A DNA stretch of 64,000 bases from Glandiceps talaboti. Its lineage: Eukaryota; Hemichordata; Enteropneusta; Spengelidae. The stretch is taken from the NCBI RefSeq assembly GCF_964340395.1, contig NC_135551.1, forward strand, positions 11,825,379-11,889,378, given 5' to 3'. Made by a program: the position numbers and the translations under genes. The notes under the pieces are model-generated. The model worked only from the letters and a program-made list of their open reading frames with translations. It did no database searches and had not been told where the DNA came from. The stretch's first letter is position 1, and each line of letters opens with the position of its first letter. Of this stretch, positions 10,670 to 60,057 are shown piece by piece.

Positions 10670-13600
10670 GCATGCCTTGAAGTATTATGAAGACAACCAG
10701 CATAGTCAAGTTCATACATTTGAACTATCATTGGAAGCTTCTATGGTCAGGAATCTGTATACTAAGTAAGTCTTACATGGTTTGTGGTCAGGAATCTGTA
10801 TACTACTAGTGAGTCTCACATTGTTTGTGGTCAGGAATCTGTATACTAAGTAAGTCTTACATGGTTTGTGGTCAGGAATCTATACCAAGTAAGGTTTGTG
10901 GTCAGGAATCTGTATACTATTACTGAGTAAGTCTTACATGGTTTGTGTTCAGGAATCTATACCAAGTAAGGTTTGTGGTCAGGAATCTGTATACTATTAC
11001 TAAGTAAGTCTTACAAGGCTTATGGTCAGGAATCTGTATACTAAGTAAGTCTTACATAGTTTGTGGTCAGGAATCTGTATACTACTAGTGAGTCTCACAT
11101 TGTTTGTGGTCAGGAATCTGTATACTAAGTAAGTCTTACATGGTTTGTGGTCAGGAATCTATACCAAGTAAGGTTTGTGGTCAGGAATCTATACCAAGTA
11201 AGGTTTGTGGTCAGGAATCTATACCAAGTAAGGTTTGTGGTCAGGAATCTGTATACTATTACTAAGTAAGTCTTACAAGGCTTGTGGTCAGGAATCTGTA
11301 TACTAAGTAAGTCTTACACGGTTTGTGGTCAGGAATCTGTATACTAAGTAAGTCTTACAAGGTTTGTGGTTTCAGAAACAGCAACACGTGCGAGTATCGA
11401 ACGAAGTAAAAACAAGATTTTAAATTTTGAGATCGTATGAAATTATGTCAGTGGATTCTCCAGCATGATTGCCTGCAGATGTGATCTTACGGCCAACCAT
11501 AACATGTAATGTGAAGATTTTATAGAACATTGTAGCATAGCTCACACCGTAGAAGGAGCTCCAATAGTCAAGTAGAAATTTATATACTAAGTGCATGCCC
11601 CAGACTTTTACCAGACATAGACATACGTTTCCCCTTGTTATCAGCATACTCAGAAGCTATTACGTCTGCCCGTGAATGGAAAATGTTGATGTTGATGGTG
11701 ATGCCTCTATTTGCGTAGAGAAAGAACAGGTAATTTCATACCTTTTAACCTTCAAAGTCAGTATCATTATTATTTGTTTTGTCCTGTAGTATACAACCTA
11801 ATGTATGGAGACTGGAAATGAGAAGTCCATCGGATAATATCAGTATTTGTCAGCTCAGTGCCAGACCAGTCTTCAATCATGTCACATTTACAGAATCACA
11901 GGGTAGGTACTCAGTCTCTTACGGAATCACAGGGTAGCTAGGTAGTCAGTCTCTTACAGAATCACAGGGTGGCTAGGTAGTCAGTCTCTTACAGTATCAC
12001 AGGGTGGCTAGGTAGTCAGTCTCTTACAGAATCACAGGGTAGCTAGGTAGTCAGTCTCTTACAGAATCACAGGGTAGCTAGGTAGTCAGTCTCTTACGGA
12101 ATCACAGGGTGGCTAGGTAGTCAGCCTCTTACAGAATCACAGGGTAGCTAGGTAGTCAGTCTCTTCCAGAATCACAGGGTAGGTACTCAGTCTCTTACAG
12201 AATCACAGGGTAGCTAGGTAGTCAGTCTCTTACGGAATCACAGGGTGGCTAGGTAGTCAGTCTCTTACAGAATCACAGGGTAGCTAGGTAGTCAGTCTCT
12301 TACAGAATCACAGGGTAGCTAGGTACTCAGTCTCTTACAGAATCACAGGGTAGCTAGGTAGTCAGTCTCTTACGGAATCACAGGGTGGCTAGGTAGTCAG
12401 TCTCTTACAGAATCACAGGGTAGCTAGGTAGTCAGTCTCTTACAGTATCACAGGGTAGCTAGGTAGTCAGTCTCTTACAGAATCACAGGGTAGCTAGGTA
12501 GTCAGTCTCTCATGGAATCACAGGGTAGCTAGGTAGTCAGTCTCTCATGGAATCACAGGTAGCTAGGTAGTCAGTCTCTTACAGAATCACAGGGTAGATA
12601 GGTAGTCAGTCTCTTACAGAATCACAAGGTAGCTAGGTAGTCAGTCTCTTACAGAATCACAAGGTAGCTAGGTAGTCAGTCTCTTACAGAATCACAAGGT
12701 AGGTACTCAGTCTCTTACAGAATCACAGGGTAGCTAGGTAGTCAGTCTCTCATGGAATCACAGGTAGCTAGGTAGTCAGTCTCTTACAGAATCACAGGGT
12801 AGCTAGGTAGTCAGTCTCTCATGGAATCACAGGGTAGCTAGGTAGTCAGTCTCTTACAGAATCACAGGGTAGATAGGTAGTCAGTCTCTTACAGAATCAC
12901 AGGGTAGCTAGGTAGTCAGTCTCTTACAGAATCACAGGGTAGCTAGGTAGTCAGTCTCTTACAGAATCACAGGGTAGCTAGGTAGTCAGTCTCTTACAGA
13001 ATCACAGGGTAGATAGGTAGTCAGTCTCTTACAGAATCACAAGGTAGCTAGGTAGTCAGTCTCTTACAGAATCACAAGGTAGCTAGGTAGTCAGTCTCTT
13101 ACAGAATCACAGGGTAGCTAGGTAGTCAGTCTCTTACAGAATCACAGGGTAGCTAGGTAGTCAGTCTCTTACAGAATCACAGGGTGGCTAGGTAGTCAGT
13201 CTCATGGAATCACAGGGTAGCTAGGTAGTCAGTCTCTTACAGAATCACAGGGTAGCTAGGTAGTCAGTCTCTTACAGAATCACAGGGTAGCTAGGTAGTC
13301 AGTCTCTCATGGAATCACAGGGTAGCTAGGTAGTCAGTCTCTTACAGAATCACAGGGTGGCTAGGTAGTCAGTCTCTTACAGAATCACAGGGTCGCTAGG
13401 TAGTCAGTCTCTTACAGAATCACAGGGTAGCTAGGTAGTCAGTCTCTTACAGTATCACAGGGTAGCTAGGTAGTCAGTCTCTTATAGAATCACAAGGTAG
13501 CTAGGTAGTCAGTCTCTTACAGAATCACAGGGTAGCTAGGTAGTCAGTCTCTCATGGAATCACAGGGTAGCTAGGTAGTCAGTCTCTTCCAGAATCACAG

Positions 13601-14903
13601 GGTAGGTAGTCAGTCTCTTACGGAATCACAAGGTAGCTAGGTAGTCAGTCTCTCATGGAATCACAGGGTAGCTAGGTAGTCAGTCTCTTACAGAATCACA
13701 GGGTAGCTACAGGGCAGATTGTTCTGAAATTTGATAGGAACATTCTTAGGGGTGTTTGATTAAGAATTGTTCATGCCATGATGATCCCATCAGTGATATG
13801 CAAATTTGGACTAAAAAAGTGTCTTTTTGGTCAAAAATCTATAATTCCAAAACTACTGAGCCAGATTTGTCTGCAATTTGGTGGGAACATTCTTTGGGGT
13901 GTTTAGATTGAGAATTGTTCATAACATGATGATCCCATAAGTGATATGCAAATTAGGTAACAAAATATGCCTTTTTGGTAAAAAAAATCTATAATTCCAA
14001 AACTACTCAGCAGATTCAGCTGAAACTTAATGTTGATGCCCATGGAGATGTGTACGTGAAAATGTTATTCACAATGTGATGATCCCATCATTGGCAGGGT
14101 TTTACATGACACAATATATTGCGTCTTTTACGCATTATTATGACCTTGTGATCCTCATAAAAATCAGGACTGTGTCCTATCAGATGCAAGAATTTCGGCA
14201 CAAGATTTAATATTCCTCTCCATTTGAAGTGATTACATTAGATTCTGATTACAAAATGTTTGCGCACCAATTGCAAGAGAAGTGCCTACCCAATGATCAA
14301 ATATTAGCAATTGATGGAATATCTATGCCTTTTCCATTCCTCTGACGGTAGTATTCCCTGCTCAAATCACAAAAAGCGTTGAAATCAGACCTTTTCAAGT
14401 TCGAACTGCAACATTCAAATAACCCTCGTTAACACCGCCATATTTGATATCGTTGAGTGAGATGAATAATTACCCAGAGACACTTGCGCCGACGTACATA
14501 AGGAGAAGTGATTAAATTTACGGTAGAACTTGAAAAGTTCCGATTTCAAGAGTTTTGGTAACCCGCAATGGAAGTTTTGCAGTCAAGATGAGGTAAACAG
14601 ACAAATAATTGATTTATTGCTAATATTTTACCTCCGGGCGATTTTAATCCTTAGTTACCAGAATTTTTAGTAAGCCTGTGTTTCACAGCTGACTCTTTGC
14701 AGGACGGAGAAATAATAGGGACAATTGTCAGAACCGAGTCCCGGATTACTCCATATGCAAGCAGGACTAGCATCATTGTAATTGCATCTTTTACGTATGT
14801 ATTTTGTCTTCTGGGTGTTACTGCTTATCTCACCGGTAACAACCGGAAGTCAAAAGACGCATGTATAAGAAGCAATTATGAGGAAGTAAAGGTAAATAAA
14901 TGA
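10670..14903 (+). CDS. Unidentified single-pass membrane protein, last three exons
   Basis: Three exons join in phase: 10670-10765 (acceptor TTCTAG, donor GTAAGT), 11790-11902 (donor GTAGGT) and 14689-14903, ending in TGA. The first encodes HALKYYEDNQHSQVHTFELS and onward. The second begins NIQPNVWRLEMRSPSDNISI. The third begins ADSLQDGEIIGT and contains a hydrophobic segment (SIIVIASFTYVFCLLGV) followed by a short, mostly polar tail with Arg and Lys, as expected for a type I membrane protein with its C-terminus in the cytosol. The first in-frame ATG of the third exon would lie after the true acceptor, so 14689 was chosen by phase. Both introns carry junction-derived tandem arrays (10745-11370 and 11890-13710). 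The 5' exons were not found. I do not recognise the family. Confidence 0.6.
10745..11372. repeat. Tandem array copied from an exon/5' splice site junction
   Basis: The real exon end, GGTCAGGAATCTGTATACTAA followed by GTAAGT at 10766, is repeated about fifteen times. Units vary from about 30 to 58 bp (forms with ATACTAAGTAAGTC, ATACCAAGTAAGG and ATACTATTACTAAGTAAGTC), each joined by GGTTTGTG. Most units keep an intact GTAAGT-type donor after exon-like sequence, so the intron opens with a chain of decoy donors. Confidence 0.9.
11890..13712. repeat. 36-bp minisatellite copied from an exon/5' splice site junction, about 50 copies
   Basis: The unit is GTAGCTAGGTAGTCAGTCTC then TTACAGAATCACAGGG. 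The last part equals the true end of the exon at 11902 (ACAGAATCACAGG followed by GTAGG). Copies carry point variants (TACGG, CATGG, AGATAGG, GGGTGGC) and some are shortened. Nearly every unit retains the AGG|GTAG junction. Confidence 0.95.
13713..14110. repeat. Dispersed repeat, degenerate tandem units
   Basis: Two to three diverged copies of about 140 bp contain ATGATGATCCCATCAGTGAT and ATGCAAATT-like cores. The same family appears at 19740-20340, 22140-22330 and in reverse at 62480-62940. Non-coding. Confidence 0.65.
14370..14575. mobile_element. Foldback element in the last intron of the 10670-14903 gene
   Basis: GAAATCAGACCTTTTCAAGT near 14380 is matched by the complement of ACTTGAAAAGTTCCGATTTC near 14527, with a non-coding centre of about 120 bp. 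It ends about 110 bp before the acceptor at 14689. Confidence 0.55.
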
Positions 14904-15234
14904 AATGTAGCCTATCTACACATTGGGTAACAAACGGGAGGAAATCTCAAGAGATGAGTGACAATGTAATATCATAGTCATACCCAACTCAACTGTGAAC
15001 TGTTAACATGTTTATGTTATGATATAATGGCTTAAAAAGTTCTCCCTTGTGATCATGTATAAATACCGATTCCATGCATGTTCAAACATTGAATGGTTTA
15101 TTGACTATTACAAACAGCCCCAGATTGTCAGGGAGTTCAAAGAATGCATTGAACAGGTACTTTCAAAATCTCTAGACGAATGATAAAAATGTAAATGCAC
15201 GGTATATAACAAAGTTCCTATCTCATCATGGATG

Positions 15235-15240
15235 AATAAA
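15235..15240 (+). terminator. Candidate polyadenylation signal of the membrane-protein gene
   Basis: AATAAA lies 332 bp after the TGA at 14903 and is followed by AT-rich sequence. It is the first clear hexamer after the stop that precedes unrelated repeat material. Confidence 0.5.
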
Positions 15241-16212: not shown

Positions 16213-16339
16213 TGTGACTCTGTGGATTGCTTGACTGTCTTGCGTCTACTTTATAAGATCCCGGGTATTAGCACTATCATAATTGTAATTATTGACTACA
16301 CAGGGTAAATATATTCCAAAAGGAGTTTAATAGCATCTT

Positions 16340-18400: not shown

Positions 18401-18404
18401 ACAA

Positions 18405-19849: not shown

Positions 19850-19880
<31 letters not shown>

Positions 19881-24023: not shown

Positions 24024-24025
<2 letters not shown>

Positions 24026-24079
<54 letters not shown>

Positions 24080-28900: not shown

Positions 28901-31900
28901 TCAAACTCTTTGGGAGGCAGTGTTGTATGTAGTTTCCTCCATCACTGTAAGTTGTCATGCATAGACCTATCCAAATAAACACTGCCCTCATGTGGTAGTG
29001 TTGTTATTTCCTCATTGACAGTATTTAATAGACCTATCCAAATAAATGTGATAGTGTAGCAATTGCTAGTACCATCAAGGTAAGCTGTTGTAAATAGACC
29101 TATCCACATAAACACTGCCCTCATGTGATAGTGTAGCAATTGTTACCATTATGGTAATCTGTTGTGAATAGACCTATTCAAATTAAAACTGCCGTCATGT
29201 GATACAGTGTAATGGTTTTGTCCATCACTGTAAGCTGTTGTAAATAGACCTTACCAAATAAACACTGCCCTCATGTGATACAGTGTACATGTACATGTAG
29301 TATTCTATGGTTAATTCTGAAAAAATCCAAGTAAAATGTGCTTTATCTAGCTGGAAATAGGAAAACAGCATATTACACATATAAAAACAATGAAACAAGT
29401 TCACACTTCAAGACTAACTTCCATGTTATGTTTTATCACCTCAGGATTGTTGGAAACACATCAACACAAGGAAAGCCTTCCTATCAAAACTGTGGGTAAT
29501 ATTCCGTAATGCTGGTAATGGTTCCGCCACTGTCATCTATCCCAACTTACTACCACTACTTAGTAAAATACCAGTAGATGTCATTGGACAGGGAATAGGA
29601 TTTTATAATGAATTCTTTACCAACATGAAAACAGGGTAAGTTATTTACAACTTTATTTTGGTTCATTTATATGCAAAGAAAAAGAAGTCAATAGAGAAAA
29701 CATGAGAACGTAGTCACCTAAAGGTAGAGATATTACAGTAATTACTGAGGGCATTATGGCTAGCAATAGGTTCATATACAGATGCTGTTTATGTGGTCTC
29801 TATAACATCTGATTGGTTGTAGTGTTGATGTACAGAGCCGTTGTGATAAGTAGTGCATTTTATATGAAATGAACACCTCTTGGCTGGTACATTTCAGACG
29901 GTGCCGTACAGAGATCTGTGGTTCATGACATTGTAACAGCTGCTTGATTATGTTCACTTCATCAGCCCCCATGTTAAGTTTTGTTGCTTGGATCCTTGCA
30001 AAAATTGAGACTGTTTGAATTGGGTTAACTTTGGATATTTGGATTGTATGTGTATGGAGCTACACTGTATGTATACAGCGACACTGTATTATGCACTCAT
30101 TGCGTACAGGTATGCAATCCAATATTGCAGTGTAGTGTAGTGCAGTGCAGACACCTAGTATGTGCACTTAATCATTGGTACATACTTGCATTCACTTTAA
30201 ATTTGTATCTCATTTGTTTTTCTCTATTTAGGTTGACAACTGACAGAGTTCACAGCAGTAGTAGTGAATGTGGAGCTGTGATCACAGCATTCATGGAGTG
30301 TCTACGATTCTCAATACTACAACATTTACAAACTACAGAGGGCAGTATAACAATACAAGATCATCTCATTTTAGACCAGGTAAACTCAAAATATTTAAGA
30401 TTCACACTCAAGTAACATTAAAACTACAGATCAGTATAGGAATACAGGATCAGCTCATTTTAGACTAGGTAAACTCTAGATATTAAAGATTTACTCTCAC
30501 GTAGCATTTAGAGACTACAGTGTACAGAGAGCTGTATAACTCTACAGGATTATCTCACTCTGGACTAGGGTCCTCATAAAATATTGTTTATGTCATGTCA
30601 TGTCATGTTGTATTTTGTCATGTTAGATTGTTGATACTGTTCTGTTGTATTTTGTCATGTAAGGTTGTATGGACTATTATGTTGAAATATGATGTCAAAT
30701 TTATTCTAGCCTAGGGGAGGTTGAAATACTATGACAAATTTGTTGTAGCCTCGGGGAGGTTGAAATACAAATTTGTTGTAGCCTCGGGGAGGTTGAAATA
30801 CAAATCTGTTGTAGCCTCGAGGAGGTTGAAATACAATGACAAATTTGTTCTGTTCCTTTGTGTTTTGTATTAATGTTTATTCTGATTTGAAACTTCATTC
30901 CCAAAATTTGGAAAGAAAACTATTGACAGTATTTCCCCTCCTTTATATTTCACCATCAGCTGATTCCATTACTGGAAGCCTCTATCCGTGAAGAGAAAAC
31001 ACAGCTGGCATCATCTCCCCTGTACAGTCATACTTCAAGTCTATTAAATCACATGGAGAAGAACATTCAGTCTGATCATCCACATAAGGAAACATACCTC
31101 AGGGTTTTAGATATATTCTGGACCAACTTTTCACCAATATGTATCAGTGTTGTTGATGAGTTAGATGAAATGTCCAAGGGACAACCATTGGAAAATATTG
31201 CATTCTTACTGGAATGTGTCAAGTCACCAAATGTTGTGCGAAAAGCAGCTGCAAAAAAATCCACCAGGGTTAAATTTACAGATGGACCAGGTATTGGTAC
31301 TGGTGCTAGGAGTAAAGTGAAACCTGTTGTTGAACAGATGAATAGAGAAGAAACACCAATCAAACAGGAATTAGATGACTTAGTTGATATACAACCCATA
31401 AAAGAAGGACCACTACTTAGTCTTGTCTGCAAAGTATCCATAATGTCTCATCAATTTGCGCAGCAAAAACCATCTCAAATTCATCAAAAGTTTTTAGCAA
31501 AGCTTGTAAAAGACTTTGCATCTTCAGAGCTATTTAAAGCACTCACAGAAGTTGATACATCAGATGTCAAAGACAGTGAAGAAACAGAGGGAGAAATAAG
31601 CCATGGAGAAATTGAAAACAGAGCCTCATATGCTGGTAGTTTTTTCCACAAGATATTACTTCCATGGATAGAACAACTGGAAAACAGAGACTTGGCAAAT
31701 TATGGGATAGACTGTTTAGTTGATATGATTCTTGCTGTGGTCCAGTCATGTGACAATGAAGCTGAGAAAATACCACTCTTGAATGAAGTGTTGGAGAAAT
31801 GCAGTAATACCATAGTGTTACATAATTTAGTCAATAAGGTAATTGAGTCCTGGTAGATCTTCCAGAATCTGGTAAAAATCAGTTGAGAAGCTTTGTATTC

Positions 31901-37900: not shown

Positions 37901-40900
37901 AGGTCTATTGAATGAGACAGGATTTCTATACCAGGCTGCTACTTGGATCAAACAGTCTACACTAACAACTACCTCATCTACCAGGTATAATGTGAAATCC
38001 CTATATCATAGTAGAATTTGGAATGATTCTGTAGTATTTTATAGTCTCTGGTATATCACATTTTACTTCAAGGAGAGAGATTGATAAGATAACACATTCT
38101 CACAAACTGGAGCTGATATTTCTTCTGTGACACTGTGAAATATCATCTTGATGGTGTGTGTCAGAGAGTGCTGTAAAAGGGGCTTTGGTCAAAGTTTATG
38201 AATGTGTGAATATCATTGACTTTTGTTGTCCACAGTTAAAGTGTATTTGGTCTTAAATAATTACCAGTAGTTTAAAACACCCACTAACAACAGTTATCAT
38301 TATATTCTATATTACTGTCAAGTGTAAGTGCTTAGAATGCTAATATTTTATTCTTGTTTTCACAGTGTGAGGGCGCTAGCAGAATCAGCGGTTGAATTAT
38401 GTGAAATAATTATTAACAGTCTTCCACAAGATGATAATGATAATGATGATGATGATGATGATAGTGATGAGAATGAAGAAAGTCTAAGAAGAAAGTCTCC
38501 TATCATTTATGCCTTACTAGAACTGATGATGCCAACAGATGATGAGTGGGATGAACATCGAATGCAGTTGCCTAGCAATGTAAGAGTTCTGTTTTTACCA
38601 TTGATCATTGAAGTCAGTATACACAGTGTTTTTGGTATAGCTGACTCCACAATGTCATAGTTATTGTAATAATAGCCATGCGGTAATGGAGATAGTAAGA
38701 TATTGGTGTTTCTTAGAACATTATATTGTGTACATTGCTTATTCAATATGAAAAATTTGTATTGAATAATTTCCATAATAGCATTGAAATCTTAAAATTG
38801 ATGCCAACATTTGAGTGTAAATGTAATACTTGCAATTTTTTTAGCAATTTAAAAACTCTTTTTTCCATTTCTATTTTTTGCCTCAACTACAAGCTATATA
38901 GACTATTGACCTTACCATTAGGGTAACCCTATTTTTATAATGTTTCTCATTACTTTTTCATGGCAACTATGGGTTGGTTGGTTGATGTAAAAAAAAAATA
39001 AACAAACAAAAAATCATCTTCATGTTTCTCTGCCTCTCCTTTTCCTCCTCTCTATCTTCTTTTTATTGGATTCCTGGTAACAAGCCCTTTCCCAGCTTCT
39101 CTACACAATTGGCATGTTCTCAGACCCCCTTTCTTGAATAATTTCCATCATGAAAGAAATACTCTGTTCGTGAACAAGTGTCATCATCACTGCCATGACT
39201 GTACATGACATCGACAGTCTAGACACTTGCTTATTCTTGCCAGAGAGGGTGCTGTTCCATAATGAAGTGGGTGAAAATAATTTTTTTTTTTTAGATGATG
39301 ATGTCAGAGCTGAAAATTTGGGTTGGTTGGGAAATGAGAAACAACAAAAATAGTGTTACCCTTATCAGTGTTTATCTAAAATATGTTATACAGTATTTGT
39401 ACTAATTCTAGTAAACTCAAAAAATCATGAATTGATAGATGTATTCAACACTGAAAACTTGTTTTTTTTCTTATCCCTTATACAGTGGAAATCTACATTA
39501 ATGTTGAAGAGGGTCATGACCTTTACTGATATCCCACAATCCTGTACAACTTCCTGTGCAATAGTACCAAGGCACACTTTACTTGCCATATTCTCATCTG
39601 TATTGTTGCAAAAGTGTTGTCATGGTAACAGCATACAGGATGGTCTGGAAGGTGGAGAAGCAAACCTGGAAGCTATAAATGATGCAATTCTAAAACTTGA
39701 AATGAAACATACTGACTGGACTATGGATATAGGAGATATGAAAACACAACTATTGGAGTGTGTGTATGGATTAATATGGTGTAGTAGTGAACTTGGTCTT
39801 GAACTTGGAGCAGGAGAACAGGTATTGTCAACATTTGGTAGATGAATCACAGGGGATTGTTATTGCAAAACAAGTGTAAATCTGGCATGGAACTATATAC
39901 ACAATGAATGAGGAACAAGTTTCAAAGTAGTATTTCTTGAAACTTTTCTTCAACTCAATATTTCTTAGATAATGTAAATGATATAAAATCACAAAATGAC
40001 TCTATATTCATGGTTCCACTCCTGTCAATCAAACAGAACTCTTAGCCAATCACAACTCAGCAAAGTCACGCCTGCTTACAGCCGCCATTTTGTCCCACAT
40101 TGATCGACACTGTACTAGTGAACGTACGACACGTACGTGATTGAGCTGCAGTATTGCCTTTCCAGTTTGTAACTGTGTTTTTGCGACAATTCAAACGAAA
40201 ATGGTGAAAAGATGTGCTTGGGGTACTTGCAAATCAGATGAGCGGTATCTGGGCACCCAACCTACTATCCACTTTGTACCATTCCCCAAACCGAAAACGC
40301 AACTAGAAAAATGTCTGCGGTGGAGAAAGGCGTGTGGCAGACCACACTACCAACTAAATACCGACAAAATCAATAAACACAAGTATGTCTGTTCTAAGGT
40401 AAGAATTATATATCTATACAAATTTATAAATGGTTAAAATTAACTGTTACAGTGTTCTTATTTTGCATTTTTCGCCTCGTGCAAGATTGTTTGTACTGAA
40501 CTTTCTGAAGCTGAACGACCCGGCGTTTGCAAAAATCGAACCATGGCCTCGATCCAAAGGGCAATGTTGTCTGCTTGAACTATTCTTCTTTTTGGTTAAC
40601 ATTTAAGTTCCTGGTTCAAATTTAAACTAACCCAGGGGTGTTTTCAGTAATTTAGACCCCTCAATCGACAGTTTACTCTAAAATTACTTGTCAAGATGTA
40701 TGCGATGTGCCGTATTTATGGACTAATTAGAGAATATACTTCGTTCGTTGAATTAGATATTCAACTTACAGCTGTTTTTGTTTATTTTTAAAAACAGCAC
40801 TTTCCGGGTTCTGATGGCCCAACTGATGTGTGTCCTGACCCGCTGCCAGCAGATGGCAGTTCATATACACCAACAAGACCACCACCGAAGCGAAAGGACA

Positions 40901-43900
40901 AGTGTGATGGTGATTTATCTATTGTGCAGCCGTCAAAGAGAAAATGTCTAGCGCACATATTCGACAATGATCCAGTGTAAGTGAATGTTTACATTTTCGT
41001 TTAGTAGACATGGTTTATGATGGTTCTGTTCGTCATTTGTAGTATATGTTTGTTTAAAAGTTTCAATAAAAATAAATTACCAGTGTATTAATATTCAGAA
41101 CAATACAAACAATATAGATGAGTGAGTTGTATTTTCCAATGTAGAGAAAACATACATTGTAATTTGTACATCGTCATTCATTGACTTTGTGTCATTTTAT
41201 GTATATAATGGACAATATATCTTATCTCTTCACTCCCCCCTCCCCATTCAATATGAATGCATATATGTAATATATACTATAAATCATTTTTTTTTCATAG
41301 TGTATCCATACATCCGCCATTGGTTAGCAGCAGTGGCCTTGTTACAGAGAGAAATGTAGGAACTCAGACAGAATGTGCTTGTAAGTACCAATGTTATTAG
41401 TCTAGTTCAAGTATAGTATACAACAGAGTTGTGATTACTACGATCATCTCCACTCACTACGTATAGTCAAAGGTACCAACAAACCTGTTATCTGGCTAAC
41501 CCGCCTGCTGGGCCAAGAGTAAACAGTGCATGTCAGTAGTAATCCATCACAAACATACAGACAGTTGTAATTAGATACTTCCTTTAGACAATTGCTAATA
41601 TCTACTATGGAACTCTTCATAACGTTGTCATGTTTACATCAATACTGTTGGGGTAGCACAGATTTCTTTGCTAGAGTAATGACCTCTATACATAGTGAGT
41701 GGAGATGATTGTGGTAATCGTAACTATATTGTATAGGAACTAGCCTTACAATGTTATTATATTGTGTATCAAACTGTACAATTTATAGCTCTCTTCTAAA
41801 AAAAAAACATGGAGTTGAGCAGGTGTCCTCTTACATTTGTAAGAGGACACCTACTCAACTCCATGTATGTCAAATCTATTTCAAATTTCTGTACCACCAT
41901 ACATTGACAAAAAAACTTGTGTCATAAGATTTCTACCCAACCGTAAATGTGTCAAAAGATAAACAGTACTTTCTTTACTGACACAAGTAGCATTCTAGAC
42001 ATCAATCTACACACATCATTTTTGTAAACTTATTAATCAGAAACAATCACAATCAGTTTTATTATTCATATATTTTATTGGGGCTGCAAACAAGTATGCC
42101 TGGGACACATACTATTGTGAAAGTCACACTATTACATACTATTATTACATATTACTTTTTGCAAAGGTATGGTTTTGCATACTTTTGGAAAAATGCACAG
42201 AGCTTCTGCAACATCTCCTGCATGTACTCAACATCTGGCAATATTCGTTGAATAAAAACATCTATCTGTGTAAATACAACAAAATCACAAAATTCTGCTC
42301 CTGTTACCATCAACTGGCCCTGTACTTGAGCAAAATATGGATGGGTTCTTTTGAGCACTATTTCACCATCAGGTCCTCGATGCAACATGAAATTTGGCAC
42401 TTCATTCACTGCCTGGTCGATGGTAAGGTTTCTTGCACAGTATGGGCACTTACATTCCATAATTCCACACTTTCCATGGTCGCATACTTTTCCATCTGGG
42501 GTCCCACCTAAAAAGCTAAATTCTGTATTTACAACAAGACCACAGTCATGGATATGTCTGCATGTGTGTACTTCAAGGTATTTTGATTTTGCTTTTGGCT
42601 CATTGCGTTTTCCATATTCTAATGAAGCAGCTGTGATCGATTTATGTTGGAACAAACTATTCAGAAACTTTTCAGATGGAGCAGATTTCCTGTTTAAAAT
42701 TCTACCAAAATTTGATGCTGTTAAACGACATGCTCGTGATTTAATCCAGGTTTCGTTGTTTGCTTGTCCCCTTGTCTCTATTTCAAGTGTCTCTGGGTCA
42801 ATTTGAGAATGTTCTTTATTCAAGGTACGATACTCCTCTGGTAGCTTTATTGGTGCTGTTTTTGGGAGAGTTGTTGGTCCACAACCCATACCATCAGATA
42901 CTTTAGAGGTTTTCATGTTGTTCATCTGAAAGAAAGGGCAATGACAAGTTCATTATAGATTACAAAATTAAATATTTGTGTGTTTTTATCTTACAGGGAC
43001 ATCACCTCTTGACCTACTTGTGCAAACTGCTGAAATGTCGAGATTAGAAAACAAACTGAAAGAAAAGGATGCCACAATAAAAAAACTTCAATCTGAGATA
43101 ACAGAAAGGGACCTAAAAATCAAGAAACTTCAGCAGGATGTCACAAATAATTGTAAATTTGGTGTTGATTGTGTACTGAGAAATCAAAAGAAACTTAAGG
43201 GCCTTTTTAAATACTATACTGGAATTAGTTATGTTAGATTTTTAGCCTTGTTATAATTTCTTTTACCAAATGATACTGTGTTATCTTACAAGAAAGTTAG
43301 GACAGATATAAAAAACCTACCAGGTAAAGATTGTCTCTTGTTATGTTTGTGTCGTTTACGGCATAATTTTGGACTGCGAGACTTAGCAGTAAGGTTTGGT
43401 TTAGGACTACAGTCAGCTGGGGATGTCTTTAATACATGGATTGACCACATGTATTGGAAGTTAGGTCAAATTAGTATTTTGCCTCACAGGAGTATTATTA
43501 TGAATAAAATGCCTGCAGATTTTAAAAGGGACTTTCCAAGAACTGTCATACTGATAGACTGTACTGAATTAAAGACACAACAACCCAGTGCGTTGGCCCT
43601 TAAAAGTCAGTTGTATAGTGATTATAAGTCAAGTACGACACTTAAGAGTTTAATAGGATGTGATCCGTGTGGATCATTACTATTTGTGTCTGAGTTATTT
43701 ACAGGGAATATATCAGATGTACAAATATCTGAACAGAGTGGATTTTTAAAATTGTTGAAACAATTACTAGATAATGGATATCTTAACCCAGGTGATGCTA
43801 TCATGTCTGATAAAGGATTCACAATTCATAAAGAAATATCTGAACTTGGCTTACAACTAAATATTCCTCCTTTTATATCATCATCTTCTCAGATGTCAGT

Positions 43901-46378
43901 GGCAGATACACAGATTACAGAAAAAATAGCAAAACACAGAATCCATATTGAACGCCTCATTGCTAAGATAAAGACTTTTAAAATTGTTTCAGATGTTATA
44001 CAAGCCACTCTTTTTGAGAAGATCAACAGTATTTGGTCAGTGTGTTGTTATCTGACTCTATTTCAAGATGTCTTTGTGAAAGAGAAAACACAATAAACAA
44101 ATAACTGTCAGGACTACTATATACACTCTGTTAATTTGTGGTGTCTTTTATTTACATATCACATCACATATTAAAATATATCCATCAAAGAGTTGTTGAT
44201 TATTTCACATACCTGATAGGATAACATAGATCCCAGCTGCACTTCCCCAAAAGATGTATGTGTTGTTGGTACATCATCTGATAGAGTATATGCCAAGGGT
44301 GTTCCTTTCAGATTCTGTAATATACCTATGTCAGTTGAATTTACTTTTGGTAACCTGAAACATTTGCAAAACACAATTATAAGAGTTAATTACCCGAGTA
44401 TTTAATCTGATAATACACATCCTCTTGAAGAAACCCACAAAATGTTTCTGTGTACTTGCATCAAATTATGTATTTGCTGCACAAGTGTGTGGTGTGATTC
44501 AATTAGTATTTGATGTGTTTAAACGAGACTGATACTATAGCATATTGTAAGACTTGTGGCTAGCAAAATGGCTATGACACACACATATATATGACAGATT
44601 TTAATAAATCATCCAATATTGACATATCCTTTCTAAAGAGATGCCCTCAGAAATGAAATCAAAACATTTTAACTTTTCCCAAGTATACAAAAGTTTGCAA
44701 CATGAAAATGTAATGACAAAATCAAACCATAAATCATGATGGTGTACTGTTTCTTACTTCTTATTACTGTCAACCTGACAGACTATTGGTCTTCTCTTTC
44801 TTGTTTCAATGGTTGGTCTTGCAACTACAACATGATTTATTGGGACTGGTTTTATCTTTGGTCCCCTTGGAACACGCCACTGTTGTGGAATGCTGGTACA
44901 GCTCAGCTGTGCTGGTACATTAGTGAAGTTGTGTAGCTTCAATCCTTGTAGTGACTTTATCAAACCGATGACGTGAACAGTGGCCACTTAACCTGAAATG
45001 AAAATAAACAGCAGTCAGTGTTCAGTTGTTAACAAAATGTATAGACAGTATACAACGCAACGACAAGGATCGTGCACGTACAGGATCTAAGTACGGTGGC
45101 AGGATGTTTCGGATACGGGTAGACATGCAGTATGGTCGAGGTACTGGTACTTACACATACATACAGGCTGACCCTCCATGAAAATATCGACTTCATTCAA
45201 CATACCGGAGTAATAATAAAATAATATCATGAAAAGTTTCCAACCAAAATCAACTCCTTTCATTAGTAGTTAGCGGAAACTATATTTGTATGATTCATGA
45301 ATATGTCAGGCCAGGGCGAGATGAAAGTGATACGGAAGTTGCGTCTACGCAGTGTTTACACAACAGGCAAACACAAAGTTCAAAGTTGAAGTACGTTTGT
45401 TCATATACTTTCCTACGTACCGTAGAGGCTTACGTAGTTCTTTTATGATAACAGCTACAAATAATACAATTTTAGCAATACTGGTGAATTGTTTAAACAT
45501 TTAAAAAAAATTAACTTACCCTGCCTTACAAGAACAGTTGGCATTCGTCACTTTCCTCAGTACTCGTGAAATGTCAACTTCAATTTTGTGCGGTGACTCG
45601 GACTTCCTCATTGATCGCCAGCAACGCGCCAACACTTTCAAATCATTACTAGCGTTATTTATCTTAATGTCATGAACATAACCTTGAGTAAAATAATTGA
45701 GTCCTTTATCCTGTGCCTTTGTGGAAAGACTTGAAACTCCAGGGAGGTAGGCAATTGAGATATCGTCGGGTACGCTCTGCAGACGAATTTGCCGCCATGT
45801 TTTATTACCAGAACAATGTCCCACAAACTCAAAGCTTGTGGGGCGTAGCAACAGTAACCATGGTGGGCGGGGCTTATTACGTAATGTGGAACCATGAATA
45901 GAACCCAAAGTTGACACACATTCCTTTCCCCACTATTGCTACATATAATATTATTAACATGAGAGATATTTATGGAAATACTTCATTTTATTTTGACTAG
46001 GAGCTGAAGAGAGTGTCTGAAAAACAACCTGAGATCTCCTCAGCCTGGAGATTACTGAATTCAAGTTTATCCAAAATGTTATCGGATCTAAAGGCAGGAC
46101 ACTGGGAAATACTGTTATCATCAACTCTGGAAAGGTAGAGTAGATCTTAAACAATTCTGTAAACACTGTGTTTTTGAATTTTATTCAACTGATATGATAG
46201 AATATGTTCAAATGTCAATAATTATACCCTTCTTGAGTTCATGTAGTTTTGTTTTGTTTTTAATTTCATTTTGAATTAACAGCTTGAATTTTTTTCTTCA
46301 ACTTTCCCCTTTGTTACTGTGTTTGTAGACTATGAGTAGGCTGAAATATGTTTGCAAATGTTTTAATAAGTGTGTAAA

Positions 46379-46601: not shown

Positions 46602-49600
46602 TGTGAAATCATGTGCCTTTGACGTTGATTTAATTCAGAAAGTCTAACTTACTTTAATATTGCAATCACAACTTTTTCCAGGTCTCTGAAAAATGGAAGT
46701 CTGTGGTCCATGTCCTTAGGATACATGCTATCAAACTGTAAAACCCTGAATAAACTAGAAATAGATGTCTTACAGTGTGCTGGGTCAATGGATAGGTTAG
46801 TATTATAGTTACACTTTATATCATGATATGTGAACAGCTGGTGCATACAGAATACTAGGAATGTATTAAACCAATTACCAATGAATCACTCACCATGGTA
46901 AATACGGTAAAAAAATATTTCAAAAATTGATTTCTGATCATGTTCTTAGGTAAAATAAATGTTTTCAAAAAGTGTGCAAAAAGTAAATGGACACATGATC
47001 TTTTGATGGTAGATAAAGTTATACTAGTTTGTCTCAAATAGTGCTTGCACAGTTCCTTGTAGCGTTTGAGTTATGGTCAACAAACAGACATAACTATGAG
47101 AAAAGATTTCATATGTAAATGCAATAGTTCATGTATAGCAGCTTAACATAGTTGTAAGATTTTGCCTCTCTCTACTGATTACTAGGCATATTTCAGTAAA
47201 TAGTAAAACATATACTGAGTATTTGAAGTAACTTTTCAAAAACAACAAAAATATGTACAAGTTCAGGAACATGTAGAAATGTCATGTGATTTGGTATTTG
47301 ATGTAATTGGTCAATGTTGTGTTGTAGGACTGTCCAATCTAATCTCTAATTATATTTTACTGTGTAACCTACAGATTTGCTGTACTACATGAATCCAGTC
47401 TTCAAACACTTGAGTGTATTATTCCATATTTAAAGTCAGAACACATTCTACAACTAACTGAAATTAACACAGCTGGTATGCTGACCAGTACAGAGGATAA
47501 CATATTGTCAGTATCAGGTAGGTGTTATGGTTTGAAATGTTATAGTGTAGTCAGTATCAGGTAGGTGTTATGGTTTGAAATGTTATAGTGTAGTCAGTAT
47601 CAGGTAGGTGTTATGGTTTGAAATGTTATAGTGTAGTCAGTATCAGGTAGGTGTTATGGTTTGAAATGTTATAGTGTAGTCAGTATCAGGTAGGTGTTAT
47701 GGTTTGAAATGTTATAGTGTAGTCAGTATCAGGTAGGTGTTATGGTTTGAAATGTTATAGTGTAGTCAGTATCAGGTAGGTGTTATGGTTTGAAATGTTA
47801 TAGTGTAGTCAGTATCAGGTAGGTGTTATGGTTTGAAATGTTATAGTGTAGTCAGTATCAGGTAGGTGTTATGGTTTGAAATGTTATAGTGTAGTTAGTA
47901 TCAGGTAGGTGTTATGGTTTGAAATGTTATAGTGTAGTCAGTATCAGGTAGGTGTTATGGTTTGAAATGTTATAGTGTAGTCAGTATCAGGTAGGTGTTA
48001 TGGTTTGAAATGTTATCATAGTCTATCAGGTAGGTGTTATGGTTTGAAATGTTATAGTGTAGTCAGTATCAGGTAGGTGTTATGGTTTGAAATGTTATAG
48101 TGTAGTCAGTATCAGGTAGGTGTTATGGTTTGAAATGTTATCATAGTCTATCAGGTAGGTGTTATGGTTTGAAATGTAATTATCATAGTCTGTACTGTCG
48201 ATTGTTAGTAAAAGCCTGGTGAAAATATAATTTATCAATAGTTTAGTTTTAAATATTTCATTCTCATACCCATAGTTGGTCTTACTACCCAACCACTACA
48301 ACATTGAAATGTTTACAATTTGTCTATTTTGTCATACTTAGGTAGTCTTACTACCCTAGGTGTCCCCAATAAATGCTTCTAGCAGGATACAAACCTCACC
48401 AAAGTACATGTGAAATGTTCAAAATTTATCTATTTTGTCATACTTAGGTAGTCTTACTACCCTAGGTGTCCCCAATAAATGCTTCCAGCAAGATACAAAC
48501 CTCACCAAAGTAGATTTGAAATGTTCAAAATTTATCTATTTTGTCATACTTAGGTAGTCTTACTACCCTAAGTGACCCAATAAATGCTTCTAGCAGGATA
48601 CAAACCTCACCAAAGTATAGGTGAAATGTTCACAATTTATCTATTTTGTCAAACTTAGGTAGTCTTGGTGCCATTTGTGTCCTAAATAAATGCTTCCAGC
48701 AAGATACAAACCTCACCAAAGTACATGTGAAATGTTCAAAATTTATCTATTTTGTCATACTTAGGTAGTCTTACTACCCTAGGTGTCCCCAATAAATGCT
48801 TCCAGCAAGATACAAACCTCACCAAAGTAGATTTGAAATGTTCAAAATTTATCTATTTTGTCAAACTTAGGTAGTCTTACTACCCTAGGTGACCCAATAA
48901 ATGCTTCCAGCAGGATACAATCCTCATCAAAGTAAATTTGAAATGTTCACAATTTATCTATTTTGTCAAACTTAGGTAGTCTTACTACCCTAGGTGTCCC
49001 CAATAAATACTTCTAGCAAGATACAAACCTCACCAAAGTACATTTGAAATGTTCAAAATTTATCTATTTTGTCATACTTAGGTAGTCTTGGTGCCCTTTG
49101 TGTCCTAAATAAATGCTTCCAGCAAGATACAAACCTCACCAAAGATCTTATGTCAAGTGTTTTAAATCTACTGAGTTCATGGAGAGAAGAACATGAAGAT
49201 TTATTTTTGTTTGGTTGGTAAGTCCAAAATATAATCTCCTTTCTGATGAATAGTGCCCTCTAGTGGTAGAAAAGAGAATATTGCTAAAGCACCTTCAGCT
49301 CTATTAGTTGATGTAAACATTCTCAAATTTTATGCCCAAGGGTTCAGCAAAGGTCGTTCTCTTCTCTTCATACATAAGCGCATGCAAGAAAATTTCAAAT
49401 GCCACCATTTTTTGAGAGACAACTGCATAATAATTAATAATACCACATAATGATGATATCAGGATTAAGTATATTATAAGAATCTTTATCATCAATAAAA
49501 AGTACTAAGGTGATAAAATTTGTTTATATAGTCACTTTATTATTTTTATCACCAACCATATTGTAAGCCTGTAGTTGATTCAAAATAATCATATTAATGG

Positions 49601-52600
49601 AATCATAAATTTTTAAAACTAATTCTGAAAACCCTTTTTCTTTCAGCAATGTGAATGATGCCAGTGTCAATAAAATCAATTTCAACATAGAAATAGTTCA
49701 GTTGATGTTAAATGCAGTGATGAATATACCAGAGTTAATAATAACCTCACACTGGGATTTCATGATGTGTAGTCTTGTATCATATATTCAGGTATGTATC
49801 AGGGTTCTCCCTAACTTAATAACCTCACACTGGGATTTCATGATGTGTAGTCTTGTATCATGTATTCAGGTACGTATCAGGGTTCTCCCTAACTTAATAA
49901 CCTCACACTGGGATTTCATGATGTGTAGTCTTGTATCGTGGATTCAGGTATGTATCAGGGTTGTCCCTAACTTTAATAATAACCTCACACTGAGATTTCA
50001 TGATGTGACAGTGTAGTCTTGTATCATGTATTCAGGTATGTATCAGGGTTCTGCCTAACTTAATGACCTCACACTCGGATTTCATGTGTAGTCTTGTATC
50101 ATGTATTCAGGTATGTATCAGGGTTCTCCCTAACTTGATAACCTCACACTGGGATTTCATTATCTGTAGTTTTGTATAATAGAGTCTTGTATCATGGAGT
50201 CAAGTATCTTCAGCATTCTCCCTAATTTTCTTAGACTAGTCATTGAGGTACAGCTTGAAGTGTGACAGGGCTAGAAATTGAGGTTGTGTTTGCATGAATG
50301 AAGATATTTGAGATTTGTTTTCAGCCAAGGAAAAAGAAAATATATGAATGACCGAGTCAAAGTGAACTATCATATCATATACCATGTAAATAAATGAATG
50401 ACTGATGATGATGACATTGATAATGATATTTTCACCTGTATTCTCACAGAGCTGCAGTGAAAGTCTTCAAAGTTCACCATCCCTAGCTACCCAATCATTT
50501 TGTTGTGCAGTGTTTGACCTGTTATCAGCAGTCAGTGATCATATGACAAGTAATTGTACAGTTGTATCAAGCGACCAGACAACAGAGTGGGTGGAATTCT
50601 TTAGTGATGGCATTTACACAACTTTGTTCCCAATCTTTATCCTAATTGTTGGTAAGTGAACATAAAACTATTTTAGAAATACTCTCCTGTGTGTGTTTAA
50701 CAGCTTTAAATCTGATTCAGTGTGATTCATTGGCAGCAGTCATTGACTATATCACCTGTAAGTCTGTAGTAGCAGTCATTGACTATATCACCACCAGGTA
50801 GGTCTGTAGTAACAGTCATTGACTATATCACCACCAGGTAGGTCTGTAGTAGCAGTCATTGACTATATCACCTGTAGGTCTGTAGTAGCAGTCATTGACT
50901 ATATCACCACCAGGTAGGTCTGTAGTAGCAGTCATATTGACTATATCACCTGTAAGTCTGTAGTAGCAGTCATTGACTATATCACCTGTAAGTCTGTAGT
51001 AGCAGTCATTGACTATATCACCTGTAAGTCTGTAGTAGCAGTCATTGACTATATCACCTGTAAGTCTGTAGTAGCAGTCATTGACTATATTACCTGTAAG
51101 TCTATAGTAGCAGTCATTGACTATATAACCTGTAAGTCTATACTAGCAGTCATTGACTATATCACCACCAGGTAGGTCTGTAGTAGCAGTCATTGACTAT
51201 ATCACCTGTAAGTCTGTAGTAGCAGTCATTGACTATATCACCTGTAAGTCTGTAGTAGCAGTCATTGACTATATCACCTGTAAGTCTGTACTAGCAGTCA
51301 TTGACTATATCACCTGTAATTCTGTAGTAGCAGTCATTGACTATATCACCACCAGGTAGGTCTGTAGTAGCAGTCATTGACTATATCACCTGTAAGTCTG
51401 TAGCATCAGTCATTGACTATATCACCACCAGGTAGGTCTGTAGTAGCAGTCATTGACTATATCACCTGTAAGTCTGTAGTAGCAGTCATTGACTATATCA
51501 CCTGTAAGTCTGTAGTAGCAGTCATTGACTATATCACCACCAGGTAGGTCTGTAGTAGCAGTCATTGACTATATCACCACCAGGTAGGTCTGTGGCAGCA
51601 GTCATTGACTATATCACCTGTAAGTCTGTAGTAGCAGTCATTGACTATATCACCACCAGGTAGGTCTGTAGTAGCAGTCATTGACTATATCACCCGTAAG
51701 TCTGTAGTAGCAGTCATTGACTATATCACCACCAGGTAGGTCTGTAGCAGCAGTCATTGACTATATCACCTGTAAGTCTGTAGTAGCAGTCATTGACTAT
51801 ATCACCTGTAAGTCTGTAGTAGCAGTCATTGACTATATCACCTGTAAGTCTGTAGTAGCAGTCATTGACTATATCACCTGCAAGTCTGTAGTAGCAGTCA
51901 TTGACTATATCACCTGTAAGTCTGTACTAGCAGTCATTGACTATATCACCTGTAATTCTGTAGTAGCAGTCATTGACTATATCACCACCAGGTAGGTCTG
52001 TAGTAGCAGTCATTGACTATATCACCACCAGGTAGGTCTGTAGTAGCAGTCATTGACTATATCACCTGTAAGTCTGTAGTAGCAGTCATTGACTATATCA
52101 CCTGTAAGTCTGTAGTAGCAGTCATTGACTATATCACCACCAGGTAGGTCTGTAGTAGCAGTCATTGACTATATCACCACCAGGTAGGTCTGTAGTAGCA
52201 GTCATTGACTATATCACCTGTAAGTCTGTAGTAGCACTAAGAAATGATGACATAATGATATTATTACTAATTACATTTTCATACATGTACACAAGTTGTC
52301 TTCTTCCACTTTTGATTCAGAAACAAATCACTTGCAATGGCCTTCTTTAGTGTCTAACTAGATCTGACAAAATGATCCAAAGGTATTGAGTAAACTAAAG
52401 GTGTGATTTTAAATCAATCAAAAGTGGAAGAAGAGAACTTGTATATGAATCCCGGTGCATACATAGTATTATAGTATATATTTAATTTGTTTATTGTTAC
52501 TTTTGGGGAAAATACTCCCCTAACTCTGTATCTTCTTTAGCAAAGTATTTTTGGGAATAAAATTTTATGTCATATTTGGTAAAATTAATGTTAGGATTTA

Positions 52601-55600: not shown

Positions 55601-58600
55601 CCATACATATGCACGTCAATTTGTTTCATGAAACGATCCAATATGGCCGCCTGGCAGCCATTTTGTTTGCAAATTTTCCCTGTCTAAAGCCATAACTCAG
55701 ACATGCTTGAACAGATCTCATTCAAAGTTGGTATTAGGACAGTGTTCTATGACATACATGTGTATATTCATTGTTGTCATGATACGATCCAATATGGCTG
55801 CCTGGCAGCCATTTTGTTTGCGATTTTTCCATGTCGAAGCCATTACTCAGACATGCTTGACCAGATATCTCATTCAAAGTTGGTATTAGGACAGTGTTCT
55901 ATGACATACATGTGCATATCCATTTTCATCGTGATACGATCCAATATGCCTGCCTTGCAGCCATTTTGTTTGCGAATTTTCCATGTCCAAAGCCATAACT
56001 CAGACATGCTTGAACAGATCTCATTCAAAGTTGGTATTAGGACAGTGTTCTATGACATACATGTGCATATCCATTTTCTTCGTGATACAATCCCCCATAC
56101 CCAACCCATCCTTTATTGTTGTAGGCATTTTCCATGTCCAACAAGCAGACACAACATATCTAAGTCTGTTTGATTTAGGTTCACAAGTGTTGTTGCGTGA
56201 TCAGAGTAGTGATAATTCCTTAAAACCCAATCATAGCGGGGACTATGTCATTCTCTCAATGACTTGTTATTTTTGTCAACAGACAACCTCCTGCATCATT
56301 GATGGATGTGTATAACTTGACATCAGAATACATAGATGGTATTCTAACAGACGTCAGAGTTGGAGAATGTGTCCTCATTGAAGGCTACAGTGATGCTTAC
56401 TACTACTCATTAGCATATTTGTTGTCATGGAAACTCTTACTAGCTTTCTTCAAAGGTGCCACTGCTGAGGTATGACAGCTGTCTCTTGTATATCATTGTT
56501 ATTTCATAGGTGATAGTGAGGACTGGTATGAGATAATGATGAAGAGAATGAAGATATTGAATTTTGAATTTAAAAAATAATGACTTGATGAGTGGTAGTT
56601 AAACGTATGTACTGGACTGGACTACTATTCATTAGCATATTTGTTACAAATTTCCTGAGTCCCCTATTCTGACAGGGCCTGGAGCAATTCTACATGTAAA
56701 CGGCATGTACACTGCATGTACACCTCATGTACCCTTCATGTACACCACATGTACTTTATATGTACCACATGTACATCACATGCATACCACATGATAATTA
56801 TAAATTTCGTACAGATCATTCCTATTCTTTTCTGAAATCTTTATTGACTAATTCAGAGCTCCTCATGTCTCCTTCATGTACACAACACGTATACTGCATG
56901 TACAGCACGTGTACATCGCATGTACACCACATGTACTTTGCATGTACACCACATGTACACCACAATTTCCACAAATAATTAATATATAATTTATGTGTTC
57001 ATTATACAATACAATATGGTAATACAATTTTCTGAAATTTTTATTGACTAGTTGAGAGCTGGGTATGCTGCCTATTTCCGTCAACACAAGATGGTGACTA
57101 CATTACTGAAAAACTTGTTCCGATTGATGCCAGAGACTCCTGTTACTATGGACAGAAGTACATCAAAGACAGTTAATATGTTTACTGTCCAACCTCAATT
57201 CTTTAATACAGGTAAAGATAAAATATTTGGTTAATTTGATGGTCAGGGATGGAACGTTTAGGTGATAGAGAGGGGTTAGATGGAAGTCTACAAATACAGC
57301 AAAGAAAGTCAATCTGTTTAATGTTCAACTCTCCTGTATATGTGTGATAAGATAGAAATAGGAATGATGGATTTATAATAAGATGGAGGGGGGGAGGGGG
57401 GCTGTGTGGAGAATCGCAGGACTGTGGAGGGTGTGGGGAACTGTGTGGAGAGTGGCTAAATAGAGGTGGAAAGAATTACACCAAACCATAGACCCTCCAC
57501 CAAGGGTCTATGACCAAACTAAAGAAAGTCAGATTTACGTACTAACTATTGTCTGTTGTTCTGTGCATGGATGTGTTACTCCATGGTCTGTTTAACAAAG
57601 TAGTAAACATCTGTTGTGAAAGAACTAGCTGTACATCCTAAATTGTGAATGTAAACTTGATATAAAAGAACTAACTGTATATACTAAATTGTGAATGTAA
57701 ACTTGAAATGAAAGAACTAGCTGTACATACTAAATTGTGAATGTAAACTTGAAATGATTGCAAGTAGAGTTAGAGAGAGATTCTATTTTGATGAACCTTA
57801 TATACCAACTTTGTCAATGTTAGTTACTGACTTGTTACTTTCTCTGATCCTTAGGATCTGTCCAGTCATCTCAAAACATATGTCATTTGAGTTGTTCAGT
57901 CTACTATAGTGCCTTAGAAGATATACCAGCTATGGTTAGACAATGGTGGAATAGTCAGGATAAAAGAGTGGCATCATATGTTGACAAGTAAGTCAGATAC
58001 GTCAAGTATTTTAAATAATACATTCTTGTACCACAACCATGACCAAAGGTTCTAATTAATTACGAGTAACGTTTCGCCAGTTCACGTCAACAGACTTTGT
58101 CAAACTGTCATAAGTAATAAGAACCCTTGGTTGTGGTATATGTTGACAAGTAAGTCAAATGCCTCAGGTATTGCAATAATACATTATTGTACCATGACCA
58201 TGACCAAGGATTCTTATTACTTACGAGTACCTCAGGTTTTAGAAATTGATAGTCTACATAAAGAATACATCAACAACGCTTTACTGTAAACAACAATTTA
58301 TGATACATATGAAATTCTATAATCATGGTGAAATGTCATTTCTTGCTCACAACCATCATAATTGTCCTAATCATGGTGAAATGTCATTTCTTGCTTCCAA
58401 CCATCATAATTGTCATAATCATGGTGAAATGTCATTTCTTGCTCCCAACCATCATAATTGTCCTAATCATGGTGAAATGTCATTTCTTGCTCCCAACCAT
58501 CATAATTGTCCTAATCATGGTGAAATGTCATTTCTTGCTCCCAACCATCATAATTGTCATAATCATGGTGAAATGTCATTTCTTGCTCCAAACCATCATA

Positions 58601-60057
58601 ATTGTCCTAATCATGGTGAAATGTCATTTCTTGCTCCCAATCATCATAATTGTCATAATCATGGTGAAATGTCATTTCTTGCTCCCAACCATCATCATGG
58701 TTAATTGGATAATCATCATGATATAGTTTTAGGTTTACTGAAAATAAATTTGAAAAGATGATCAATATGAAAGCTGTGTGTGTCAACTAATAAGTATGTC
58801 ATCTGATATAAATGTTATTTCATTGATGAAGAAAGTACATAGAAATAAACTTTTTCAAATATGTTGGTCCCCTTGATAAGCTGAAATCTTCACTTACCAA
58901 GATAGTCCAACATAAGGGTCTACAATATCAAGAAATATAATTGTTGTGTATTTTGCTCCTAGTTTTACTTCAAAGTATGCCAGTCCAGTGCTGTGCTCAC
59001 AAGAGATCCAGTCAGTTCAGAACACAGAACATAACATGGAGAATATGACAGTGAAAGGTAGACCTGTGACTAGAGAAGTCATTGCTACTTATACTATGGA
59101 GTTATCAGAAGAGGTGTCAGTAGAACTAGTTATCCAACTACCATCTAATCACCCACTTGGTATTGTAACAGTTGACAGTGGTAAGAAAATTGGTATCAAA
59201 GCAGCACAGTGGAGAACTTGGATGTTACAACTAACAACTTTCTTAGTCCATCAGGTCAGTAGTCAAGTTATGGCTTTTATTTGCCCATAACTTCCTCTAC
59301 AGCCAGAGTTTATATTTTTTAAAGGGAGCACCACTCCAGGAAATTCAGATCAGGTCAGTAGTCAAGTCGTGGCTTTTATTTGCCCATAGCTTCCTCTACA
59401 GCCACAGTTTATATTTGAAAAGGGAATGCCACTCCAAACTATGGGTTCTGGAGATTCATTTCATGATTTTGCATCATCTACAATTACTTGTGATTTCTGG
59501 AAAACCTCAAATTGATGGTGCCTTTATAGGGTATATTTGCTATGGGCTATTGCATCATGGGAGTCAGCAGAAATAATGTGTCCAAGTTGCACACTGAATA
59601 TTCAGGAGCTGTTTTTTATATATCTATTTCTTGAGTGGCATTCCCTTGTCTCTAAAATTATATTTAATTCTGCTTTATATCACATGAGTATGGTATGCAA
59701 AGAAGTCATACTTGAAGCCAGATTCAAGTAAATGCTTCCAGTATTTTTTGTATTCTGGTTTGCTTTACTTTCAACTCTCAAACTTTCACTGGAAGAGCTG
59801 TTCCAGTCTCACACCAAAATCAATCTTATCTCTGAGTCTGTTATTCAGACATCTGCACAATTTGACAATTATTGTCATTCTCATAATGTCATTCCCAAAA
59901 CTATGGAACTCTTTGTCACTTTACACTTCACCAAGCCTCCAGCCTGGTTTTTTTAACAACAAAAACCCAGCATTCTTATTTGTTCACCAAAGCATATGGT
60001 GTACTTTATCCATTCAGCACTACTGAACAGAACATTGCATTGCAGATTATATAGAAA

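Follow-up and report, generated by a model that had tools for sequence, protein, structure and literature searches.

Tandem arrays spanning exon–intron junctions in the LTN1 and ZWILCH genes of a probable hemichordate

The LTN1 (Listerin) and ZWILCH genes, which lie in a 64,000-nucleotide stretch of DNA (the window) from a genome of 590 Mb in 47 contigs, carry tandem arrays that run across exon–intron junctions and repeat an exon's end and the adjoining splice site into the intron. The arrays are one-sided, with the copies on the intron side of the junction used in the gene model. We regard it as probable that they are junction-spanning minisatellites of the kind known as 'mirages' in amphioxus, and that frequent minisatellite birth is filtered by splicing at the exon-proximal junction. 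The structure is thus already known from amphioxus and is here extended beyond it. A preliminary description of the window, which had reported tandem arrays beginning at splice junctions of the two genes, was largely right: the repeated donors were borne out, the exact start position was not, and the argument from chance stood only in part.

Results

Catalogue and anatomy of the junction arrays

Tandem Repeats Finder (TRF) gave 58 rows for the window, which merge into 29 arrays with a period of at least 18 bp and cover 27% of it. Copies of each junction were sought with a 40-nt probe laid across it (within 2.5 kb, threshold 20/40) and again with a 36-nt probe (2 kb, threshold 18/36), the latter search giving the best copy per site alone. 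In LTN1 junction-spanning copies were found by the probe search at seven of the 26 donors (28946, 30379, 33543, 47517, 49791, 52974 and 57987) and at three of the 26 acceptors (49082 with seven copies, 57052 and 61077 with one each). At the donor at 59254 the copy, spaced at 99 bp, holds only about 6 nt of exon and falls under both thresholds. Both ZWILCH donors (2/2) have junction-spanning copies; they were kept out of the counts because they had been chosen on the strength of the preliminary description. TRF alone spans 5/26 donors and 1/26 acceptors of LTN1. All ten donors named in the preliminary description are followed by GT and have a repeated junction copy downstream, and the eight of these in LTN1 agree to the base with exon ends of our model, which was made with those claims already known. 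The exon numbers of the three acceptor arrays it listed (20, 26 and 30) could not be matched with certainty to the three acceptors that pass. The features, all on the + strand, are as follows.

24196-61142, LTN1 (Listerin) gene; 27 located exons, with those between 39821 and 47375 missing from the model
10744-11370, ZWILCH donor array; exon end 10765; unit of about 41 bp and variants
11888-13709, ZWILCH donor array; exon end 11902; about 52 copies of a 35-bp unit
28935-29280, LTN1 donor array, decayed; exon end 28946
30321-30520, LTN1 donor array; exon end 30379; 89-bp unit; 2 copies
33508-34686, LTN1 donor array; exon end 33543; about 23 copies of a 50-bp unit, GT kept in 21 of 22 downstream copies
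47507-48177, LTN1 donor array; exon end 47517; 43-bp unit with 15 copies downstream, every one having a donor that scores like the real one
48304-49144, LTN1 acceptor array 5' of exon 49082-49217; 106-bp unit; 8 copies, the last being the real acceptor
49735-50177, LTN1 donor array; exon end 49791; units of 75-88 bp; two decoys that would give 26 or 52 in-frame residues
52915-53212, LTN1 donor array; exon end 52974; 74-bp unit; 4 copies
56850-57060 (ends approximate), LTN1 weak copy of the acceptor at 57052, lying 199 bp upstream of that exon
57978-58160 (ends approximate), LTN1 donor duplication; exon end 57987; 162-bp spacing; 2 copies
59249-59435 (ends approximate), LTN1 donor duplication; exon end 59254; 99-bp spacing; 2 copies; about 6 nt of exon copied
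60930-61085 (ends approximate), LTN1 weak copy of the acceptor at 61077 (last exon), lying 143 bp upstream of that exon

The best copy lies downstream of the used junction at every repeated donor and upstream of it at every repeated acceptor. The arrays had been said to begin exactly at the 5' splice site, but they start from a few to about 60 nt inside the exon (array start versus donor: 47507 v 47517, 33508 v 33543, 49735 v 49791, 52915 v 52974 and 30321 v 30379). Within the window the spacing ranges from about 30 to 162 bp, with 283 bp for the decayed copy at 28946, and the copy number from 2 to about 53; the ranges given earlier were 36–160 bp and 2 to about 50. The units differ in sequence and length from junction to junction. 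In the five arrays that were inspected the edit distance of single units to the consensus is 0–13; units are near-uniform in mid-array, and in several of the five, though not in every one, those at the edges tend to diverge.

Two further repeats of the window deserve mention. At 50735-52236 there are 36-bp units whose consensus includes GTAAGT; the LTN1 donor at 50651 lies about 84 bp before the start of this array and outside it. Similar 151-bp units (ATACGATCCAATATGG...GGCAGCCATTTTG) form short arrays at 6876-7604 and 55629-56093 of the window and at 54-477 of another locus of the genome (L002), and look like a dispersed repeat that is itself tandem.

Decoy splice sites and their consequences

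Among downstream copies of LTN1 donors GT is kept in 47/49 and the score is at least that of the used donor in 41/49. This count covered the downstream side alone, and both ZWILCH arrays were left out of it, the first because its probe was a base off (10766 in place of the exon end at 10765) and the other because its alignment was ambiguous. At 47517 all 15 copies score as real donors, with a score identical to that of the used one, and at 33543 this is so for 19 of 22. When the reading frame was computed for 16 LTN1 decoy donors, 12 led to a stop within the added stretch, two to a frameshift without a stop in that stretch, and two, both at 49791, to an open in-frame extension (26 or 52 extra residues). 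Because most of the decoys tested run into a stop, a functional Listerin would be expected to require the exon-proximal donor at nearly all repeated junctions. The suggestion in the preliminary description that selection tolerates duplications when the upstream-most junction is preserved fits both the one-sidedness of the copies and the fate of the decoys (12/16 stopped, 2/16 open in frame).

Excess over chance in LTN1

Arrays cover 32% of intron bases in LTN1 versus 5% of exon bases, and any excess of arrays at its junctions hinges on the null that is chosen. The repeat-bound donors, 7/26, compare with 40/150 random points in LTN1 introns, as would follow from placement of arrays at any point with exon ends unprotected; across 17 random genome loci 26/170 points were repeat-bound. 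Five LTN1 donors are spanned by TRF arrays, against 6.3 expected from unconstrained placement (P = 0.82), 1.4 from placement in introns with an overhang of at most 70 nt (P = 0.008) and 2.45 with an overhang of at most 130 nt (P = 0.07). Because of the first of these nulls the plain argument from chance is not accepted in the form in which it had been stated, though array starts within the final 70 nt of exons (5 seen) exceed the 0.83 expected from the same unconstrained placement (P = 0.001). LTN1 acceptors show no excess, with one array end inside an exon start against 0.84–1.38 expected.

Control genes

Seven chaperonin-family and two myosin loci, picked by exon number, served as controls. 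The pick of one myosin locus (L034) was partly non-blind, as its large open-frame figure had been noticed earlier as a possible sign of repeats. The seven chaperonin-family loci held 43 of 57 chaperonin matches, and the two myosin loci held 13 of 78 myosin matches, of which 11 were used; 11 exon pairs could not be joined and their sites were taken singly by best score. Junction copies were found at 2/42 donors and 0/45 acceptors (41 acceptors after removal of duplicates). In the chaperonin-family locus L032 an exon end is present in three copies including the real one, with about 60 nt of exon, and in the myosin locus L034 an exon end is repeated in units of about 31 bp. Of the 13 arrays in the nine loci two start at a donor, where 0.50 would be expected (P = 0.09). 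The pattern is thus real outside the window, and LTN1 and ZWILCH are unusually rich in junction arrays. Array starts in LTN1 and these nine loci, compared with randomized placement, showed donors in excess and no excess at acceptors.

Paired donor motifs across the genome

A paired donor motif (MAGGTRAGT-N25-55-MAGGTRAGT) was counted on both strands, with the reversed pattern as control. For the first 100 places of each, donor pairs occupied 14 loci within 19.5 Mb (0.72 per Mb) and reversed pairs 22 loci within 103.8 Mb (0.21 per Mb), a 3.4-fold difference; loci with at least two pairs stood at 0.46 v 0.087 per Mb in the same samples. The single motif is also commoner in the donor than in the reversed form because of real donors (9 v 5 occurrences in 17 random loci), and after a crude correction from these counts the excess of donor pairs per occurrence may be about two- to threefold, with a wide margin. 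A higher density of arrays in genic than in intergenic sequence, for which the test is uncorrected, may add to the paired-motif excess.

Array units were also compared with shuffles of themselves. Those from 18 random loci together with L001-L003, the last three being hits of the pattern, showed no enrichment of the donor motif (2/39 v 1.3 in shuffles at a score of at least 5). In the window 4/26 units carried it, against 1.9 at score 5 (P = 0.115) and 0.8 at a score of at least 6 (P = 0.01). A separate candidate, possibly a giant donor mirage, is an array of about 5 kb elsewhere in the genome (G000:C1:2288029-2292966), which has units of about 46 bp, most of them with AAGGTGAGT, and contains 51 motif pairs.

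Host genes and other features of the window

LTN1 exons were placed by homology, splice-site scores and phase, and their translations match about 1230 of the 1766 residues (summed stretches) of human Listerin (3j92). A protein search with one LTN1 exon as query gave no match, and the acceptor of the exon at 37781 is out of phase with the preceding exon. The second gene, earlier called unknown, is ZWILCH: two of its exons match human Zwilch (7qpg_B and 3if8_B) in PDB with E about 6e-6, which settles the name, while in Pfam the ZWILCH piece scored under the gathering cut-off. An LTN1 intron holds, at 40141-44096 of the window, a THAP-like domain (just below the Pfam cut-off) together with a minus-strand YqaJ exonuclease and a DDE_Tnp_4 transposase; we take this group to resemble a DNA transposon of the ISL2EU type. 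At 300-2099 a reverse transcriptase domain (RVT_1) lies in a long open frame, which may belong to a non-LTR (non-long terminal repeat) element, the type being a guess.

Lineage

The mitochondrial contig (C40) carries COX1, preceded by ND2 (recognized by eye). ATA occurs at four sites in COX1, three of them positions where isoleucine is usual and the fourth one where isoleucine or methionine is usual, and at 13 sites in ND2, some of them at usual isoleucine positions. AGA does not occur in the two genes, and AAA and AGG are absent inside them, with three AAA and one AGG upstream of the probable COX1 start. According to PMC3121625 (cited here from excerpts), ATA is read as isoleucine in echinoderms and hemichordates and as methionine in chordates; Balanoglossus mitochondria lack AAA and AGG. 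Placement of ATA at isoleucine positions argues against amphioxus, the host first suspected from the literature, and the code points to Ambulacraria, probably to a hemichordate. The GC content of the COX1 locus, 53%, is nearer that of Balanoglossus (AT 53–55%, tRNA/rRNA genes) than that of Rhabdopleura (AT 66–69%), as those excerpts give them. Against a plain hemichordate label stands the position of CYTB, some 2 kb past COX1 and ahead of ND5, which departs from the Balanoglossus order (ND2-COX1, with ND5 next to CYTB) and is not described for hemichordates in the excerpts. This contig (G000:C40) repeats the mitochondrial genome head to tail with a spacing of 15,435 bases and carries three copies of COX1 and four of CYTB, which is probably an artefact of assembly.

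Discussion

The explanation that we consider probable would work as follows. Minisatellites would often be born in introns of this genome, and now and then a tandem duplication would take in an exon's last nucleotides and the adjoining start of the intron. Splicing would go on using the junction nearest the exon, which is the first of the donors or the last of the acceptors, and the gene would keep working; because the extra copies sit in the intron and would be removed with it, such a duplication would be nearly neutral, and slippage or unequal exchange could expand the array to tens of copies. A duplication confined to an exon, or one shifting the junction that is used, would be purged. The exon end need then be at most a mildly preferred place for arrays.

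Several counts weigh against so passive a scheme. Under intron placement the LTN1 arrays that start within the final 70 nt of exons (5 seen) exceed the expected 1.40 with an overhang of at most 70 nt (P = 0.008) and 1.24 with at most 130 nt (P = 0.004), and when LTN1 and the controls are pooled seven arrays start at donors against 1.7–1.9 expected, about a fourfold excess (P = 0.002–0.0035). Tolerance with random placement predicts no surplus of donors over acceptors, yet junction copies were found at 7 v 3 of 26 sites in LTN1 (P = 0.29) and at 9/68 v 3/71 when pooled (P = 0.073); and genome-wide the paired donor motif occurs 2835 times against 1261 for its reverse. The earlier statement that placement at so many junctions is unlikely by chance is supported in part, by the array starts and not by coverage (7/26 v 40/150). 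The counts suggest, without proving it, a mild extra preference for donors over acceptors, which could be mutational or could mean that spare acceptors are tolerated less well than spare donors.

Some of these counts also recommend the view that 5' splice sites are hot spots of minisatellite birth, where duplication is actively promoted by transcription-linked structures or by breakage coupled to splicing. An edge-based excess at donors with none at acceptors, the density of donor-pair loci and of loci with at least two pairs, and the motif-rich units of the window at the higher score would all follow from it. We nevertheless think it doubtful, as the repeat coverage of LTN1 donors equals that of random intron points, the ratio of single motifs (9 v 5) would alone explain roughly half of the genome-wide excess, and units from the random loci and L001-L003 are not enriched. 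The process tied to splice sites that the preliminary description proposed is not shown, donors being repeated no more often than random intron points of LTN1, yet array starts and motif pairs may point to a mild bias at donors. That 5' splice sites are favoured birth places shared by cephalochordates and an ambulacrarian we hold to be unlikely; if they were, this would be an old or recurrent deuterostome process, lengthening introns and feeding new ones.

Long near-identical arrays are hard to assemble, and an aberrantly assembled mirage is reported for the amphioxus draft in PMC3087553 (this paper and PMC3902484 are cited here from excerpts). That the present arrays are assembly artefacts, or collapsed or expanded repeats, is nonetheless highly improbable, given that their copies differ, that several cases have just two to four copies and that the pattern recurs in two independent control genes. 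A function as spare junctions, for alternative splicing or regulation of LTN1 and ZWILCH, would suit the two decoys at 49791 that could add in-frame residues without a stop; with 14/16 decoys tested giving a frameshift or a stop, and with unit sequence and length varying between junctions, we find it very improbable. The arrays might also be a stage on the way to gained or longer introns, a model already in print for the amphioxus globins (PMC3087553) and one for which most copies here have a usable GT; no new intron position derived from an array was found, and none was looked for, and we judge this reading very improbable too.

The high density of the arrays in one gene offers natural constructs with rows of near-equal donors, and brings two questions within reach of ordinary data: how the spliceosome keeps picking the exon-proximal one, and whether duplication is promoted at the edges of introns or simply tolerated there. 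Among the matches listed in our literature searches no junction arrays outside amphioxus were recognized from titles and the starts of abstracts, and in the collection searched PMC3902484 was the sole match for hemichordate, minisatellite and intron together.

In period, copy number and homogenization the junction arrays resemble ordinary intronic minisatellites, such as the LTN1 array at 34915-37195, which includes no junction; they differ in starting within coding sequence and in having a splice site in most units. The model of Rogers and the work of Gao and Lynch (2009), as cited in the excerpts of PMC3087553, likewise involve a short tandem duplication with a splice signal (AGGT), but there a new intron is made inside an exon, whereas here the edge of an existing intron is duplicated into that intron. 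The closest likeness is to the mirages of amphioxus, described in Adh3 and the globins and also in PGBD5 and troponin C (PMC3902484), in which, in the excerpts, tandem units lie across a 5' or 3' exon–intron boundary, many units carry AG/GT signals and edge units tend to diverge. Length variation and seemingly undisturbed splicing are reported for them, and they have been proposed as a source of new introns (PMC3087553); the arrays described here are known from the sequence of one assembly. The mitochondrial code places our arrays in another lineage, a difference that limits the taxon and not the kind of structure. In scale they go further, with about 53 copies in one array and eight donor cases in a single gene, against two to six units in the amphioxus globin and PGBD5 cases as given in those excerpts.

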